Below, in pieces: positions 25,128 through 40,940 of a DNA stretch of 64,000 nucleotides (position 1 is its first letter; every line of letters begins with the position of its first letter). The translations under genes were made by a program, and so were the position numbers. This DNA comes from Lysobacter soli (GTDB taxonomy: Bacteria; Pseudomonadota; Gammaproteobacteria; Xanthomonadales; Xanthomonadaceae). The stretch spans positions 496,001-560,000 of the forward strand of contig NZ_QTJR01000001.1 of the NCBI RefSeq assembly GCF_003382285.1, read 5' to 3'. The notes under the pieces are model-generated. The model had not been told where the DNA came from. It was given only the letters and a program-made list of their open reading frames with translations, and did not search any database.

Positions 25128-25145
25128 GACAGTCTCCAGTCGGGT

Positions 25146-25189
25146 GGGGCCGTCCCCGGGTGCGAATGGAGCGGCGGGGTCGTCCCCGC
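25146..25189 (-). ncRNA. Guanidine-II riboswitch (mini-ykkC)
   Basis: On the - strand two short hairpins with ACGR loops occur in tandem: GCGGGG-ACGA-CCCCGC (25189-25174) and GGGG-ACGG-CCCC (25157-25146), 16 bases apart. The second lies 8 bases before the sugE GGAG. Paired ACGR stem-loops ahead of an SMR gene define the mini-ykkC class. Ligand binding should stabilise loop-loop contact and expose the ribosome-binding site. A candidate -10 (GGAATAATCC) is at 25210-25201. Confidence 0.92.
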
Positions 25190-25294
25190 TTCCTGGATCG
25201 GGATTATTCCACAGGGCTTCGCGCGCGGCCCTCACGCGGCGGCACGCGTTTACAGCCGGGTTACACGTGCGCGTTGCCGCATGCGCGTGCGCGA

Positions 25295-36573: not shown

Positions 36574-38262
36574 TCACAACGCCGCTTCGTGCACCCCCGC
36601 CACCGCGCGGCCTGACGGGTCGGCCATCTTCGCGAACGCCGCATCCCACGCGATCGCCACCGGCGACGAACAGGCGATCGATTTGCCGCCCGGCACCGTC
36701 TGCGCGCAGGCCACGCCCGGGAAGAACTGCTCGAAGATGTGGCGGTACAGGTACGCCTCCTTCGTCTGCGGCGGGTTCACCGGGAAGCGGCTGGCCGCGG
36801 CGGCAAACACGCGATCGCTGACCTGCGCTTCCGCATGCGCCTTCAGGCCGTCGATCCACCCGTAGCCGACGCCGTCGCTGAACTGCTCCTTCTGCCGCCA
36901 CAGGATTTCGTCGGGCAGGTAACCCTCGAACGCCTCGCGGAGGATCGCCTTCTCGATCGGCCGTCCGCTCGGCCCCGGCTTGACCATCTTGTGCGAGGCA
37001 TCCATGCGCATCGCGACGTCGAGGAACTCCACGTCGAGGAACGGCACGCGCGGCTCCACGCCCCACGCCATCATCGACTTGTTCGCGCGCAGGCAATCGT
37101 AGTTGTACAGCGCGTCGAGCTTGCGCACGGTTTCGGCGTGGAATTCGCGCGCATCCGGCGCCTTGTGGAAATACAGGTAGCCGCCGAACACTTCGTCGCT
37201 GCCCTCGCCCGACAGCACCATCTTCACGCCCATCGCCTTGATGCGGCGCGCGAGCAGGAACATCGGCGTGGACGCGCGGATCGTCGTGACGTCGTAGGTT
37301 TCGATGTGGCGGATCACTTCCGGCAGCGCGTCGAGGCCTTCCTCGAAGCTGTAGGTGAAGCCGTGGTGCACGGTGCCGAGCGCCTTCGCCGCGACTTCCG
37401 CAGCCGCGAGATCGGGGGAACCTTCGAGTCCGATCGCAAAGGAATGCAGTCGCGGCCACCAGGCCTCCGTCGCATCGTTGTCCTCGATGCGCTTGCGCGC
37501 GAACCGCGCGGCGACCGCGGCCACGAGCGAGGAATCCAGCCCACCCGACAGCAGCACGCCGTACGGCACGTCGCTCATCAGCTGGCGATGCACAGCGCGT
37601 TCGAAGGCTTCGCGCAATTCCTTCTTCGAGACCTCGACACCGTGCGTCGCGGCGTGCTCGCGCCATGGACGCTCGTACCAGCGCACCAGTTCGCCGACTT
37701 CGCTGTCGTAGCAATGACCCGGCGGGAACTGCGCGACGTCGGCACACGTATCGGCCAGCGCCTTCATCTCCGATGCAACGCACAGGCGGCCGTCGCGATC
37801 GTGCCCCCAATACAGCGGGCACACGCCGATGGCGTCGCGCGCGATGACGAAGCGATCCTTCGCCCTGTCCCACAACGCGAACGCGAAGATGCCGTTGAGC
37901 GCGTTGAGCCACTGCGCGACGTCATCGCGCTCGCGATACAGCGCGTTGATGACCTCGCAGTCCGAGCCGGTCTGGAACGCGTAGCCCGTCGCGAGCGACT
38001 GCTCCAGTTCGCGATGGTTGTAGATCTCGCCGTTGACGGCCAGCGCGAGCTCGCCATCGGCCGAGCGCAGCGGCTGCGAACCGCCCGCCGGATCCACGAT
38101 GGCCAAGCGCTCGTGGACGAGGATCGCGCCGTCGTCCAGATGCACGCCGCTCCAGTCCGGGCCGCGATGGCGCTGGCGTTGCGAGAGTTCCAGCGCGCGC
38201 CGGCGCAGGGCCTGCACGTCGTCGCCGGGTTGGAGGCCGAAGATTCCGAGGATCGAACACAT
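36574..38262 (-). CDS. asnB: Asparagine synthase (glutamine-hydrolysing)
   Basis: A 562-residue cytoplasmic enzyme converting aspartate, glutamine and ATP to asparagine. Cys2 (MCSILGIFG) is the glutaminase nucleophile of the N-terminal Ntn domain (1-190); RHRGPDWSG and NGEIYNHREL are conserved there. The synthetase domain has the pyrophosphatase loop LLSGGLDSSLVAAVA. The start codon is preceded by AAGGAA. The gene sits behind an Asn-rich leader peptide and terminator (38308-38484), which indicates control by charged tRNA-Asn. Confidence 0.97.
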   Translation of the reverse strand: MCSILGIFGLQPGDDVQALRRRALELSQRQRHRGPDWSGVHLDDGAILVHERLAIVDPAGGSQPLRSADGELALAVNGEIYNHRELEQSLATGYAFQTGSDCEVINALYRERDDVAQWLNALNGIFAFALWDRAKDRFVIARDAIGVCPLYWGHDRDGRLCVASEMKALADTCADVAQFPPGHCYDSEVGELVRWYERPWREHAATHGVEVSKKELREAFERAVHRQLMSDVPYGVLLSGGLDSSLVAAVAARFARKRIEDNDATEAWWPRLHSFAIGLEGSPDLAAAEVAAKALGTVHHGFTYSFEEGLDALPEVIRHIETYDVTTIRASTPMFLLARRIKAMGVKMVLSGEGSDEVFGGYLYFHKAPDAREFHAETVRKLDALYNYDCLRANKSMMAWGVEPRVPFLDVEFLDVAMRMDASHKMVKPGPSGRPIEKAILREAFEGYLPDEILWRQKEQFSDGVGYGWIDGLKAHAEAQVSDRVFAAAASRFPVNPPQTKEAYLYRHIFEQFFPGVACAQTVPGGKSIACSSPVAIAWDAAFAKMADPSGRAVAGVHEAAL

Positions 38263-38307
38263 CGCGGGATTTCCTTGAGGGCGGAGGGATGTCGAAGGGC
38301 CAGAAAC

Positions 38308-38334
38308 AAAAAACCCGCGCTTTTCGGCGCGGGC
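38308..38334 (-). terminator. Attenuator terminator in the asnB leader
   Basis: On the - strand GCCCGCGC (38334-38327) and GCGCGGG (38320-38314) pair around CGAAAA, followed by TTTTTT (38313-38308). It stands 45 bp before the asnB start and 31 bp after the leader-peptide stop. The 5' arm can alternatively pair with 38375-38381 (antiterminator), as described for the leader. Confidence 0.92.
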
Positions 38335-38364
38335 TTCGTGGGTGCTTAGTGCGGTTGCAACGCG

Positions 38365-38484
38365 CTAATCACCGGCCCGCGGGAGGCTGGCGTTATTGCG
38401 GTTGTTATTGTTCAGGCCGGACATGGGCGCGCCGCCGCGCAGGGCGGCGATGGCGATGTAGGCGGTGGCCTGGACGGAAGACAT
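38365..38484 (-). CDS. Asparagine attenuator leader peptide of asnB
   Basis: A 39-codon ORF on the - strand. It begins MSSVQATAYIAIAALRGG and ends PMSGLNNNNRNNASLPRAGD, with six Asn codons among residues 25-31, then TAG. AGGA precedes the ATG at 38484; a shorter start at 38424 would give a 19-residue peptide. CCGGCC before the Asn codons (38420-38415) pairs with GGCCGG after them (38377-38372). The overlapping CGCGGGC (38381-38375) can instead pair with the terminator 5' arm. Stalling at Asn codons would therefore free the antiterminator; reaching the stop would allow termination. Confidence 0.88.
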   Translation of the reverse strand: MSSVQATAYIAIAALRGGAPMSGLNNNNRNNASLPRAGD

Positions 38485-38591
38485 GGCCCGATCCTGCTGG
38501 ACGCGAGCGCCGCTTGCAAGGGGGCGGGCGCACGCCGACGCCGCCGTTCATCGGATAAGCTCGCCCCGGGGAATTCAAAGGCGACAGGCCC

Positions 38592-40940
38592 ATGAGGAAG
38601 TGGATCCGACGCGTGCTCGTCGCGCTGGTGCTGGTGCTGCTGGCCGCGGCGCTGCTCGGCTGGTGGCTGATGCGCGGCAGCCTGCCGCGCCTGGACGGCG
38701 AACTCGCCCTGCCCGGCCTGTCGGCATCAGTCACGGTGCAGCGCGACGCCAACGGCGTGGTAACGGTCGATGCCGCCAACGAGAACGACGCGATGCGCGC
38801 GCTCGGCTACGTCCACGCGCAGGAACGCTATTTCGAAATGGACCTGTTGCGCCGCACGGCCGCGGGCGAACTGGCAGCGCTCTTCGGCCCGGTCGCGATC
38901 GGCGTGGACAAGCAACATCGCGTGCATCGCATGCGCGCGCGCGTGACGCAGCACATGGACGCGATCCTCGGCGACAAGCGCGACATGGCGCAGGCCTACG
39001 TCGACGGCGTGAACGCCGGACGCACCGCGCTGAAAGTGCGTCCGTGGCCGTACCTGCTGCTGCGCGCCGAACCCGAACCGTGGACGCTCGCCGATTCGGC
39101 GCTCACCGGCTACGCGATGTACTTCGACCTGCAGGACGCGCAGAACGAGCGCGAACTGGCGATGTGGCGCCTGCGCCCGCACCTTCCGCCGGCGCTGTAC
39201 GCGCTGCTCGCGCACGACGGCTCGAGCTGGGACGCGCCGGTTGCCGGACGCCCGCGTGGCGATGCGACGCTGCCCGATGCCGCGACCGTCGACCTGCGCT
39301 CGCTGCCGATGCAGGAAGGCCCGCGCCCGGCCGACGTGCCCGAGCGTTCCGACGTCGGCAGCAACAACTTCGCCGTCTCGGGCCAGCTCACCGCCGACGG
39401 TCGCGCGATCGTCGCCGACGACATGCACCTGGGCCTGCGCGCGCCGAACATCTGGTTCCGTGCGCGACTGCGCTACCCCGACGCACGCGCCGAAGGCGGC
39501 CGCGTCGACGCGAATGGCTTCACCCTGCCCGGCCTGCCGGCGCTGGTGGTCGGCAGCAACGGCCACGTCGCGTGGGGCTTCACCAACAGCTATGGCGACT
39601 GGCTCGACTGGAAGCGCGTGACCGATTGCACCAAGGACGCGTGCGCCGGCGCGACGCGCACCGTCGAGACCATTCGCGTCGCCGGCAGCGACGACGTCGA
39701 ATTCCCGGTAGATGAAACCGCGTGGGGCCCAATCCTCCATCGCGAAGCCGACGGAAGCGCGCTCGCACTGCGCTGGATCGCGCACCAGCCCGGCTCGATG
39801 AACCTCGGCCTTGCGGATTTCCTGCATGCGCGGTCGCTGGACGACGCGCTGGCAGCGGCCGACCGCACGGCGATTCCCGCGCAGAACCTCGCCATCGGTG
39901 ATTCGCAGGGCCGCATCACCTGGCGCCTGCTCGGGCCGATGCCGCTGCGCGGCGCCGGTTGCGATGCGACGCAGGTCATCGAACCCGACGCCTGTGCGCC
40001 GTGGCCGATCACCACCGCACACGGCACGGCACTGCCGATCGGCACGGTGCAACGCCTGTGGACGGCGAACTCGCGCGTGGTCGATGGCGCGCTGCTGGCG
40101 CGCGTCGGCGATGGCGGCTACGCCAACGGCGCACGCGCGAAGCAGATACGCGACGACCTGTTCGCGAAGGACCGCTTCGCCGAACGCGACCTGCTTGCGA
40201 TCCAGCTCGACGATCGCGCGTTGTTCCTGCAACGCTGGTGGACGCTGCTGCGCGAACGCGATGGCGCGGCGAAGACGCCCGCGCTGCACGAACTCGCCGG
40301 CGCCGCATCCACCTGGCAGGGCCGCGCGAGCACGGATTCGACGAGCTATCGCGTCGTGCGCGCGTGGCGACTGGCCGTGCACGACCGGCTGCTCGATGGC
40401 CTCACCGCACCGGCGCACGCCGCGCTGGGCGAGTCGTTCGAGATGCCGAACCTGTCGCACTTCGAAGGCGTTGCATGGCCGCTCGTCACGCAGCGTCCGG
40501 CGAACCTGCTGCCGCGGCGCTTCGCGTCGTGGGACGCGTTGTTCGAGGACGCCGCGCGCGAAGTGCGCGACGAGCTGGCGAAGGACGGCCCCATCGCGCA
40601 GCGCACGTGGGGCGAGCGCAACACGGCGCGCATCTGCCATCCGCTGTCGCGCGCCCTGCCTGGTTTCCTGAAGCCGCAGTTGTGCATGCCGGCCGACGAG
40701 CTCCCCGGCGACAGCGGCATGCCGCGCGTGCAGGGCCCGGATTTCGGCGCGTCAGAGCGCATGGTCGTCTCGCCGGGGCACGAGGCCGACGGCATCATCC
40801 ACATGCCCGGCGGCCAGAGCGGCCATCCGATGTCGCCGTTCTGGGGCAAGGGCCACGACGACTGGGTGCACGGCCGCGCGACACCGTTCCTGCCGGGCGA
40901 GGCGAAGTATTCGATGACGTTGGTGCCGGGGAAACGGTAA
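38592..40940 (+). CDS. Penicillin acylase family Ntn hydrolase
   Basis: A 782-residue secreted or membrane-anchored amidase precursor. An N-terminal hydrophobic segment (VLVALVLVLLAAALLGWWLM) follows KWIRR. The alpha-subunit part includes RDANGVVTVDA and ALGYVHAQERYFEMDLLRR. The autocatalytic site is DVGSNNFAVSG, with Ser257 predicted to become the beta-subunit N-terminal nucleophile. Relatives hydrolyse beta-lactam side chains, acyl-homoserine lactones or other amides; which applies here cannot be told. It is transcribed divergently from the asnB leader. Confidence 0.92.
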   Translation: MRKWIRRVLVALVLVLLAAALLGWWLMRGSLPRLDGELALPGLSASVTVQRDANGVVTVDAANENDAMRALGYVHAQERYFEMDLLRRTAAGELAALFGPVAIGVDKQHRVHRMRARVTQHMDAILGDKRDMAQAYVDGVNAGRTALKVRPWPYLLLRAEPEPWTLADSALTGYAMYFDLQDAQNERELAMWRLRPHLPPALYALLAHDGSSWDAPVAGRPRGDATLPDAATVDLRSLPMQEGPRPADVPERSDVGSNNFAVSGQLTADGRAIVADDMHLGLRAPNIWFRARLRYPDARAEGGRVDANGFTLPGLPALVVGSNGHVAWGFTNSYGDWLDWKRVTDCTKDACAGATRTVETIRVAGSDDVEFPVDETAWGPILHREADGSALALRWIAHQPGSMNLGLADFLHARSLDDALAAADRTAIPAQNLAIGDSQGRITWRLLGPMPLRGAGCDATQVIEPDACAPWPITTAHGTALPIGTVQRLWTANSRVVDGALLARVGDGGYANGARAKQIRDDLFAKDRFAERDLLAIQLDDRALFLQRWWTLLRERDGAAKTPALHELAGAASTWQGRASTDSTSYRVVRAWRLAVHDRLLDGLTAPAHAALGESFEMPNLSHFEGVAWPLVTQRPANLLPRRFASWDALFEDAAREVRDELAKDGPIAQRTWGERNTARICHPLSRALPGFLKPQLCMPADELPGDSGMPRVQGPDFGASERMVVSPGHEADGIIHMPGGQSGHPMSPFWGKGHDDWVHGRATPFLPGEAKYSMTLVPGKR

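Follow-up and report, generated by a model that had tools for sequence, protein, structure and literature searches.

A predicted asparagine-codon transcription attenuator of asnB in the Lysobacterales, with an apparently independent counterpart in the Rhodothermota

We have identified a putative ribosome-mediated transcription attenuator that, with a probability we place at about 0.9, senses charged tRNA-Asn and controls asnB. The locus lies in a 64,000-nt stretch of the Lysobacter soli genome (contig NZ_QTJR01000001.1, positions 496,001 to 560,000), hereafter referred to as the window. The Asn run, the terminator, the alternative pairings, their spacing and their conservation are read directly from the sequence, and from them we infer that the ribosome stalls, that transcription terminates and which way the switch responds. 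We also lean, if only slightly, toward the broader proposal that Asn-codon attenuation is an undescribed specificity with two or more independent origins on asnB, one in the Lysobacterales (three families, with Stenotrophomonas and Fulvimonas among their genera) and one in the Rhodothermota, with a possible third in another family of the Lysobacterales, that of locus L139, and that the Lysobacterales version acts on a leaderless leader mRNA, has its stop codon built into the antiterminator and is melted by the terminating ribosome.

The features of the locus are listed in Table 1. The AsnB of the window scores 854 bits against the NCBIfam model PRK09431 'asparagine synthase B' (cut-off 499), and 45 nt separate the end of the T-run from the asnB start at 38262. 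The sequence-only reading of this DNA had described a 39-codon ORF, an Asn run, a stop, a terminator and asnB on a single strand, and every coordinate agreed base for base; the complementary segments it named, CCGGCC (38420-38415), GGCCGG (38377-38372), CGCGGGC (38381-38375) and GCCCGCG (38334-38328), are present as described. Comparison with relatives lends strong support to its core claim of an Asn-codon transcription attenuator acting on asnB. A divergent 782-aa ORF (38592-40940, plus strand) lies about 107 nt from the leader ATG; its match to the PvdQ acylase model is weak, at 27.6 bits against a cut-off of 950.

Table 1. Features of the candidate asnB attenuator in the Lysobacter soli window
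Feature	Position	Strand	Basis
Promoter-like element: TTGCAA (38519-38514), 17 nt, CAGGAT (38496-38491)	38491-38519	-	Pattern shared with leaders of relatives
Leader ORF, 39 codons plus stop, MSSVQATAYIAIAALRGGAPMSGLNNNNRNNASLPRAGD	38365-38484	-	Equivalent ORF in relatives
Control codons AAC AAT AAC AAC CGC AAT AAC (NNNNRNN, 6 Asn in 7)	38392-38412	-	Sequence
Region 2, CGCGGGC, putative 5' strand of the antiterminator, within the leader ORF	38375-38381	-	Fold and covariation in relatives
Predicted inner helix of the antiterminator, pairing the stop codon (38367-38365)	38341-38373	-	Predicted folds
Intrinsic terminator: regions 3 and 4 plus T-run (hairpin 38337-38310, T-run to 38308)	38308-38337	-	
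Region 3, GCCCGCG, with region 2 and region 4 as alternative partners	38328-38334	-	Predicted fold
asnB, glutamine-hydrolysing asparagine synthetase, putative controlled gene	36574-38262	-	NCBIfam PRK09431

Judging from the promoter position, transcription would begin at the leader AUG or right beside it, and ribosome loading would take place near the 5' end. When Asn-tRNA is ample, this ribosome would pass the Asn codons, reach the UAG and cover region 2 together with the stop-codon helix; region 3 would then pair with region 4, and transcription would end ahead of asnB. When Asn-tRNA is scarce, the ribosome would stall soon after entering the Asn run, leaving region 2 and the stop-codon segment unmasked, the antiterminator would form before region 4 is synthesized, and the polymerase would continue into asnB. 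With a stalled ribosome and a transcript extending to region 3, the predicted probability of the 2:3 helix exceeded 0.5 in 113 of 124 leaders, a figure that is favored because region 2 was picked as the strongest duplex partner of region 3; the shuffled-tail control is free of this bias, and there the region-3 bases were paired with the tail at 0.65 versus 0.32 for shuffled tails. With the ribosome at the stop, the predicted probability of 3:4 exceeded 0.5 in all 124 leaders. At equilibrium, the full transcript with a stalled ribosome still favored the terminator in 98 of 124 leaders, the window's included, and the 2:3 helix would therefore have to form first and persist. A kinetic model of classical attenuators handles 2:3 and the terminator as a race, according to the available part of the source (PMC1183508).

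The 3.95-Mb genome to which the window belongs contains the Asn pattern AAYAAYAAYNNNAAYAAY a single time, at the asnB leader. We scanned both strands of the window and 45 loci (395,562 bases) for ORF ends that precede a terminator and carry a given residue five or more times within 10 codons, using 15 residues (all except A, G, P, R and S). There were 31 Asn matches, every one an asnB leader, whereas the other 14 residues gave 2 matches, one of which is an alternative frame of an asnB leader. The mean best count of Asn per 10 codons was 5.0-5.2 in families f1, f11 and f2, compared with 1.6 in families f7 and f9; just 3 Asn were present in 8 of the 124 leaders. Among the variable columns of the Asn and neighboring codons, 5 of 6, 5 of 6 and 2 of 4 were third-position changes in three small sets of sequences. 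Of the 804 Asn codons in the 124 Lysobacterales leaders, 391 are AAU, versus 54 of 332 in the asnB bodies of 40 related loci, and none of the 9 Asn codons in the window's asnB; the high share in leaders perhaps reflects a choice of slower or repeat-breaking codons.

Upstream regions were taken from 80 loci and from 179 genomes of the same order, two sets that overlap (e.g. the contigs of G012 and L002 are of equal length, as are those of G205 and L025); the 179 are those with an upstream region taken out of 234 with a strong asnB match, among 298 searched. A leader was called when at least 3 Asn in 10 codons lay near the end of an ORF with a terminator 12-45 nt past its stop. By this single criterion, 88 of 93 f1 genomes, 34 of 39 f11 genomes and 3 of 3 f2 genomes have a leader and terminator ahead of asnB, compared with 1 of 44 genomes of the other four families (1/23 in f7, 0/19 in f9, 0/1 in f5 and 0/1 in f4). 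Asn-rich leaders were found at loci of Xanthomonas, Stenotrophomonas, Pseudoxanthomonas, Lysobacter, Luteimonas, Thermomonas and Arenimonas, as well as Rhodanobacter, Dyella, Fulvimonas and Frateuria. Ten genomes of f1 and f11 gave no leader call, and 7 of these have a more distant asnB that is 61-66% identical to that of the window. The leader lies farther upstream of asnB in L189, as do the leader end and terminator in L184, where the leader end alone was retrieved; L123 has a six-Asn leader whose hairpin fell short of the T criterion, and no leader was found upstream of the asnB of L198, which is 79% identical to that of the window. The part of the leader before the Asn run is strongly divergent between clades and the peptide end is alike within them; across families, the Asn codons and the 2:3:4 pairings are shared and nothing else. 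This comparison, which the sequence-only reading had proposed as its check, found the Asn codons, the terminator, the spacing and the 2:3 antiterminator all conserved.

Among 22 other gammaproteobacterial loci, the leader scan flagged only L312 and L314, at 203 and 196 nt from asnB, and both were judged by eye to be chance. Another 39 loci of the 80-locus set yielded a single Asn leader (L062). No leader was found upstream of asnB in L009, recorded as Holophagales, or L020, recorded as Rhodococcus; their AsnB proteins (85% and 76% identical, respectively) are so close to those of the Lysobacteraceae as to suggest contamination, mislabelling or transfer. Repeat blocks like GGTTCCATCCGCGCAAGAGCAAC...CCGGCCATCCATGGCC, seen by eye between terminator and asnB in Rhodanobacter L026, L027 and L033, widen the gap between the attenuator and asnB at these loci.

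Families f1, f11 and f2 have 126 leaders with three or more Asn, and in all of these but L198 and L123 (124 leaders) a terminator lies 19-34 nt past the stop, whereas the distance from stop to asnB ranges from 82 to 219 nt in the 124 leaders. Pairing between regions 2 and 3 was examined in a structure-blind alignment of 117 distinct leader tails, in which 79.7% of the cells of the 2:3 helix pair, compared with 71.7% (sd 0.8%, maximum 74.4%) after row exchange and 25-40% when the columns were slid by 1-3; the relatedness of the rows remains in such exchange tests. Within this ten-pair helix the six central pairs are present in 84-100% of rows and the outer pairs in 43-82%. At the central pair, the 117 leaders have 111 G-C, 4 A-U and 2 C.C combinations, and neither G.U nor A.C occurs. 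The leaders with A-U belong to four genera and carry an Arg to Gln change in the peptide, and three of them are left with a U.G at the central position of the terminator, as if selection were guarding the 2:3 pairing. A loose string count found CAGG anywhere in the tail of 4 of 120 C-arm leaders; the central-pair result itself comes from the blind alignment. Leader tails paired with their own terminator arms at -15.88 kcal/mol, as opposed to -13.97 (sd 0.19) with exchanged arms, a value reached in 0 of 5000 exchanges.

Enclosed by the 2:3 helix is a predicted inner helix, which in 96 of 124 leaders includes the stop codon; its energy is -9.8 kcal/mol versus -7.6 in mononucleotide shuffles (lower in 107 of 124). 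The antiterminator of the sequence-only reading therefore stands in its 2:3 pairing and falls short in its extent, since this second helix lies inside it. The window's antiterminator fold (38392-38327) has a z-score of -1.5, so its total stability alone is unremarkable. In the 124 leaders, 25-59 nt separate the first Asn codon of the run from the beginning of the region-2 helix, and 1-20 nt (median 7) lie between the end of that helix and the stop codon, as the model requires. An upstream partner for region 2 was predicted in 113 of 124 leaders, a count made without a control, at positions from about -40 to +38 nt relative to the Asn run. A conserved 1:2 stem was sought in the 124 leaders and none was found, the position of the partner not being fixed; the 1:2 stem with CCGGCC that had been proposed for the window is thus not conserved, and the preferred partner there is CCTGCG.

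The promoter-like element of the window ends 6 nt before the leader ATG. The pattern TTG-N3, 16-18 nt, NANNNT, 4-9 nt, ATG precedes the leader ATG in 89 of 123 leaders, compared with a mean of 1.18 and a maximum of 4 in shuffles, and a broader pattern, run without a control, in 109 of 124. A -10 element could be placed in 81 of 102 distinct sequences, ending 5-7 nt ahead of the ATG, while a stricter consensus promoter scan found none in the leader region of the window. Because the promoter-like sequence ends just upstream of the ATG, the leader mRNA may be leaderless, starting at or next to the A of the ATG. The trp attenuator RNA of S. meliloti starts with its leader ATG, according to the accessible part of PMC7298713, and provides a precedent. 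An SD-like 4-mer lies ahead of an in-frame ATG in 19 of 124 leaders, and in the window, which is one of these, the AGGA of the -10-like CAGGAT could instead be a Shine-Dalgarno sequence.

The leader could alternatively encode a functional Asn-rich small peptide, with a terminator that merely ends its transcript and an asnB served by its own promoter. Peptides of attenuator RNAs can work in trans, as the available part of PMC7298713 describes for peTrpL of S. meliloti, and the likeness of the peptide end within clades would fit such a role. However, it is the RNA of this conserved end that pairs with the terminator, and the Arg to Gln change there tracks the terminator base; the region before the Asn run is strongly divergent between clades, and the Asn residues, not the remaining peptide, are common to the families. 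We regard this explanation as very unlikely. Sensing of another amino acid, such as Arg, or of slow translation in general appears more improbable still. Arg is frequent in f1, f11 and f2 (mean best 4.0-4.3 per 10 codons) and Ala is high as well (3.8-4.7), but Arg is also high where the leader is absent (3.1 in f7, 2.8 in f9, and 5.0 and 4.0 in the single genomes of f5 and f4), whereas Asn climbs from 1.6 in f7 and f9 to 5.0-5.2, and the gene to be controlled makes asparagine.

A further alternative is that a metabolite- or tRNA-binding RNA of riboswitch or T-box type runs the terminator, with the ORF being incidental, and alternative terminator and antiterminator folds are indeed predicted. 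T-box elements of Firmicutes control asparagine genes by termination through the charging state of tRNA-Asn; they bind the tRNA directly and have no leader peptide. No Rfam family, the T-box and riboswitch families of Rfam 15 included, reached its gathering score at the leader of the window or in 17 relatives, though, and the best permissive match of the leader was to Leu_leader (RF00512), at 28.7 bits against a gathering score of 50; the Asn codons and the 2:3:4 pairings are, moreover, the sole parts conserved across families. We consider this the least likely of the three explanations, and ribosome-mediated attenuation through the Asn codons remains our preferred interpretation.

AsnRS scored above the cut-off in 39 of 40 genomes, including that of the window, and gatB was found in none of 40 genomes (12 of 14 controls were positive); on this basis tRNA-Asn charging by amidation was set aside. 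The gene asnA was found in 1 of 46 genomes and not in that of the window. AsnB looks like the sole asparagine synthetase of the L. soli genome, with AsnRS charging tRNA-Asn, and the regulatory loop would therefore close; weaker asnB-like matches are also present in this genome.

The leader is not restricted to the Lysobacterales, an idea ruled out by L062 and its relatives. L062 is a Rubrivirga metagenome-assembled genome (Rhodothermota) in which NLTNANRNP, a stop and a terminator precede asnB. We searched 244 Rhodothermia genomes, 22 of which have asnB at E <= 1e-200, and in 6 of these 22 asnB is preceded by an Asn leader (3-5 Asn in 10 codons) whose stop is followed by a terminator after 22-25 nt; AsnRS was above the cut-off in all 6. 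The end of the stop codon lies as much as 25 nt beyond their region 2, a wider spacing than most Lysobacterales show. Own arms did not pair better than exchanged arms (n = 6), an uninformative test here because the arms are too alike. TTGAC-like and TANNCT-like boxes were seen by eye ahead of the Rhodothermia leaders of L266, L268-L271 and L278, and nothing clearly of another kind. A tree of 72 AsnB proteins, built quickly with SH-aLRT support alone and compatible with losses, placed the leader carriers of the Lysobacterales (26) and the Rhodothermia (5) in separate groups and required two changes. A single common origin was rejected on this basis, with leaderless asnB lying between the groups, and the Rhodothermia leader is apparently independent of that of the Lysobacterales. 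The only leader in f7 is that of L139 (genome G073), where MFAIYNTINTTNNRLLRSAGSF, containing YNTINTTNNR, is followed by a stop and a terminator 21 nt farther on, and is accompanied by a promoter-like TTGACA...ATAGTC; the 22 other f7 genomes have no leader. L139 is possibly a lone candidate for a third origin. It was scored as leaderless in the AsnB tree, so counting it among the leader carriers might raise the number of changes.

The trp, his, leu, thr, ilv and pheA leaders of Proteobacteria (e.g. Leu_leader and Thr_leader, RF00506) likewise have a run of codons for the product residue, alternative 2:3 and 3:4 helices and a terminator before a biosynthetic gene. The asnB leader differs from them in its Asn codons, its gene, the lack of a conserved 1:2 stem and the stop codon inside the predicted antiterminator. 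The trpL of S. meliloti shares the leaderless leader mRNA predicted here, according to the accessible part of PMC7298713, and is unlike the asnB leader in its Trp codons, its 14-aa leader, its gene trpE(G) and its occurrence in Alphaproteobacteria.

The sequence-only reading had named no Asn attenuator of this kind in the gammaproteobacteria, and full-text searches of the open-access literature in PMC listed none; any claim to priority extends no further than that literature. A survey of proteobacterial attenuators is reportedly that of Vitreschak et al. 2004. The only word beginning with 'asn' in the available text of PMC2965389 is an author-name artifact in the references, and that of PMC1262725 contains no such word. 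AsnB2 of Xanthomonas appears in the accessible part of PMC3771888 only as a candidate sRNA target that did not change, and PMC6685928 was discarded as a prior report, its subject being mistranslation in the text available. The mechanism is known; within the open-access literature, what is new is the asparagine specificity, the control of asnB, the distribution and details of the design.

If the proposal is correct, asparagine joins the amino acids under leader-peptide attenuation, and the control of asnB, apparently the sole asparagine synthetase gene, is accounted for in a large group that includes Xanthomonas and Stenotrophomonas. The available text of PMC2965389 names leader peptides for Proteobacteria, Actinobacteria and Firmicutes, and the Rhodothermota leaders would place a ribosome-mediated attenuator in a phylum beyond these. 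Recurrent origin on one gene would also provide a natural experiment on the ease with which such switches evolve.

Elsewhere in the window, a Guanidine-II (mini-ykkC) riboswitch aptamer was detected at 25145-25191 on the minus strand (49.3 bits, gathering score 32).
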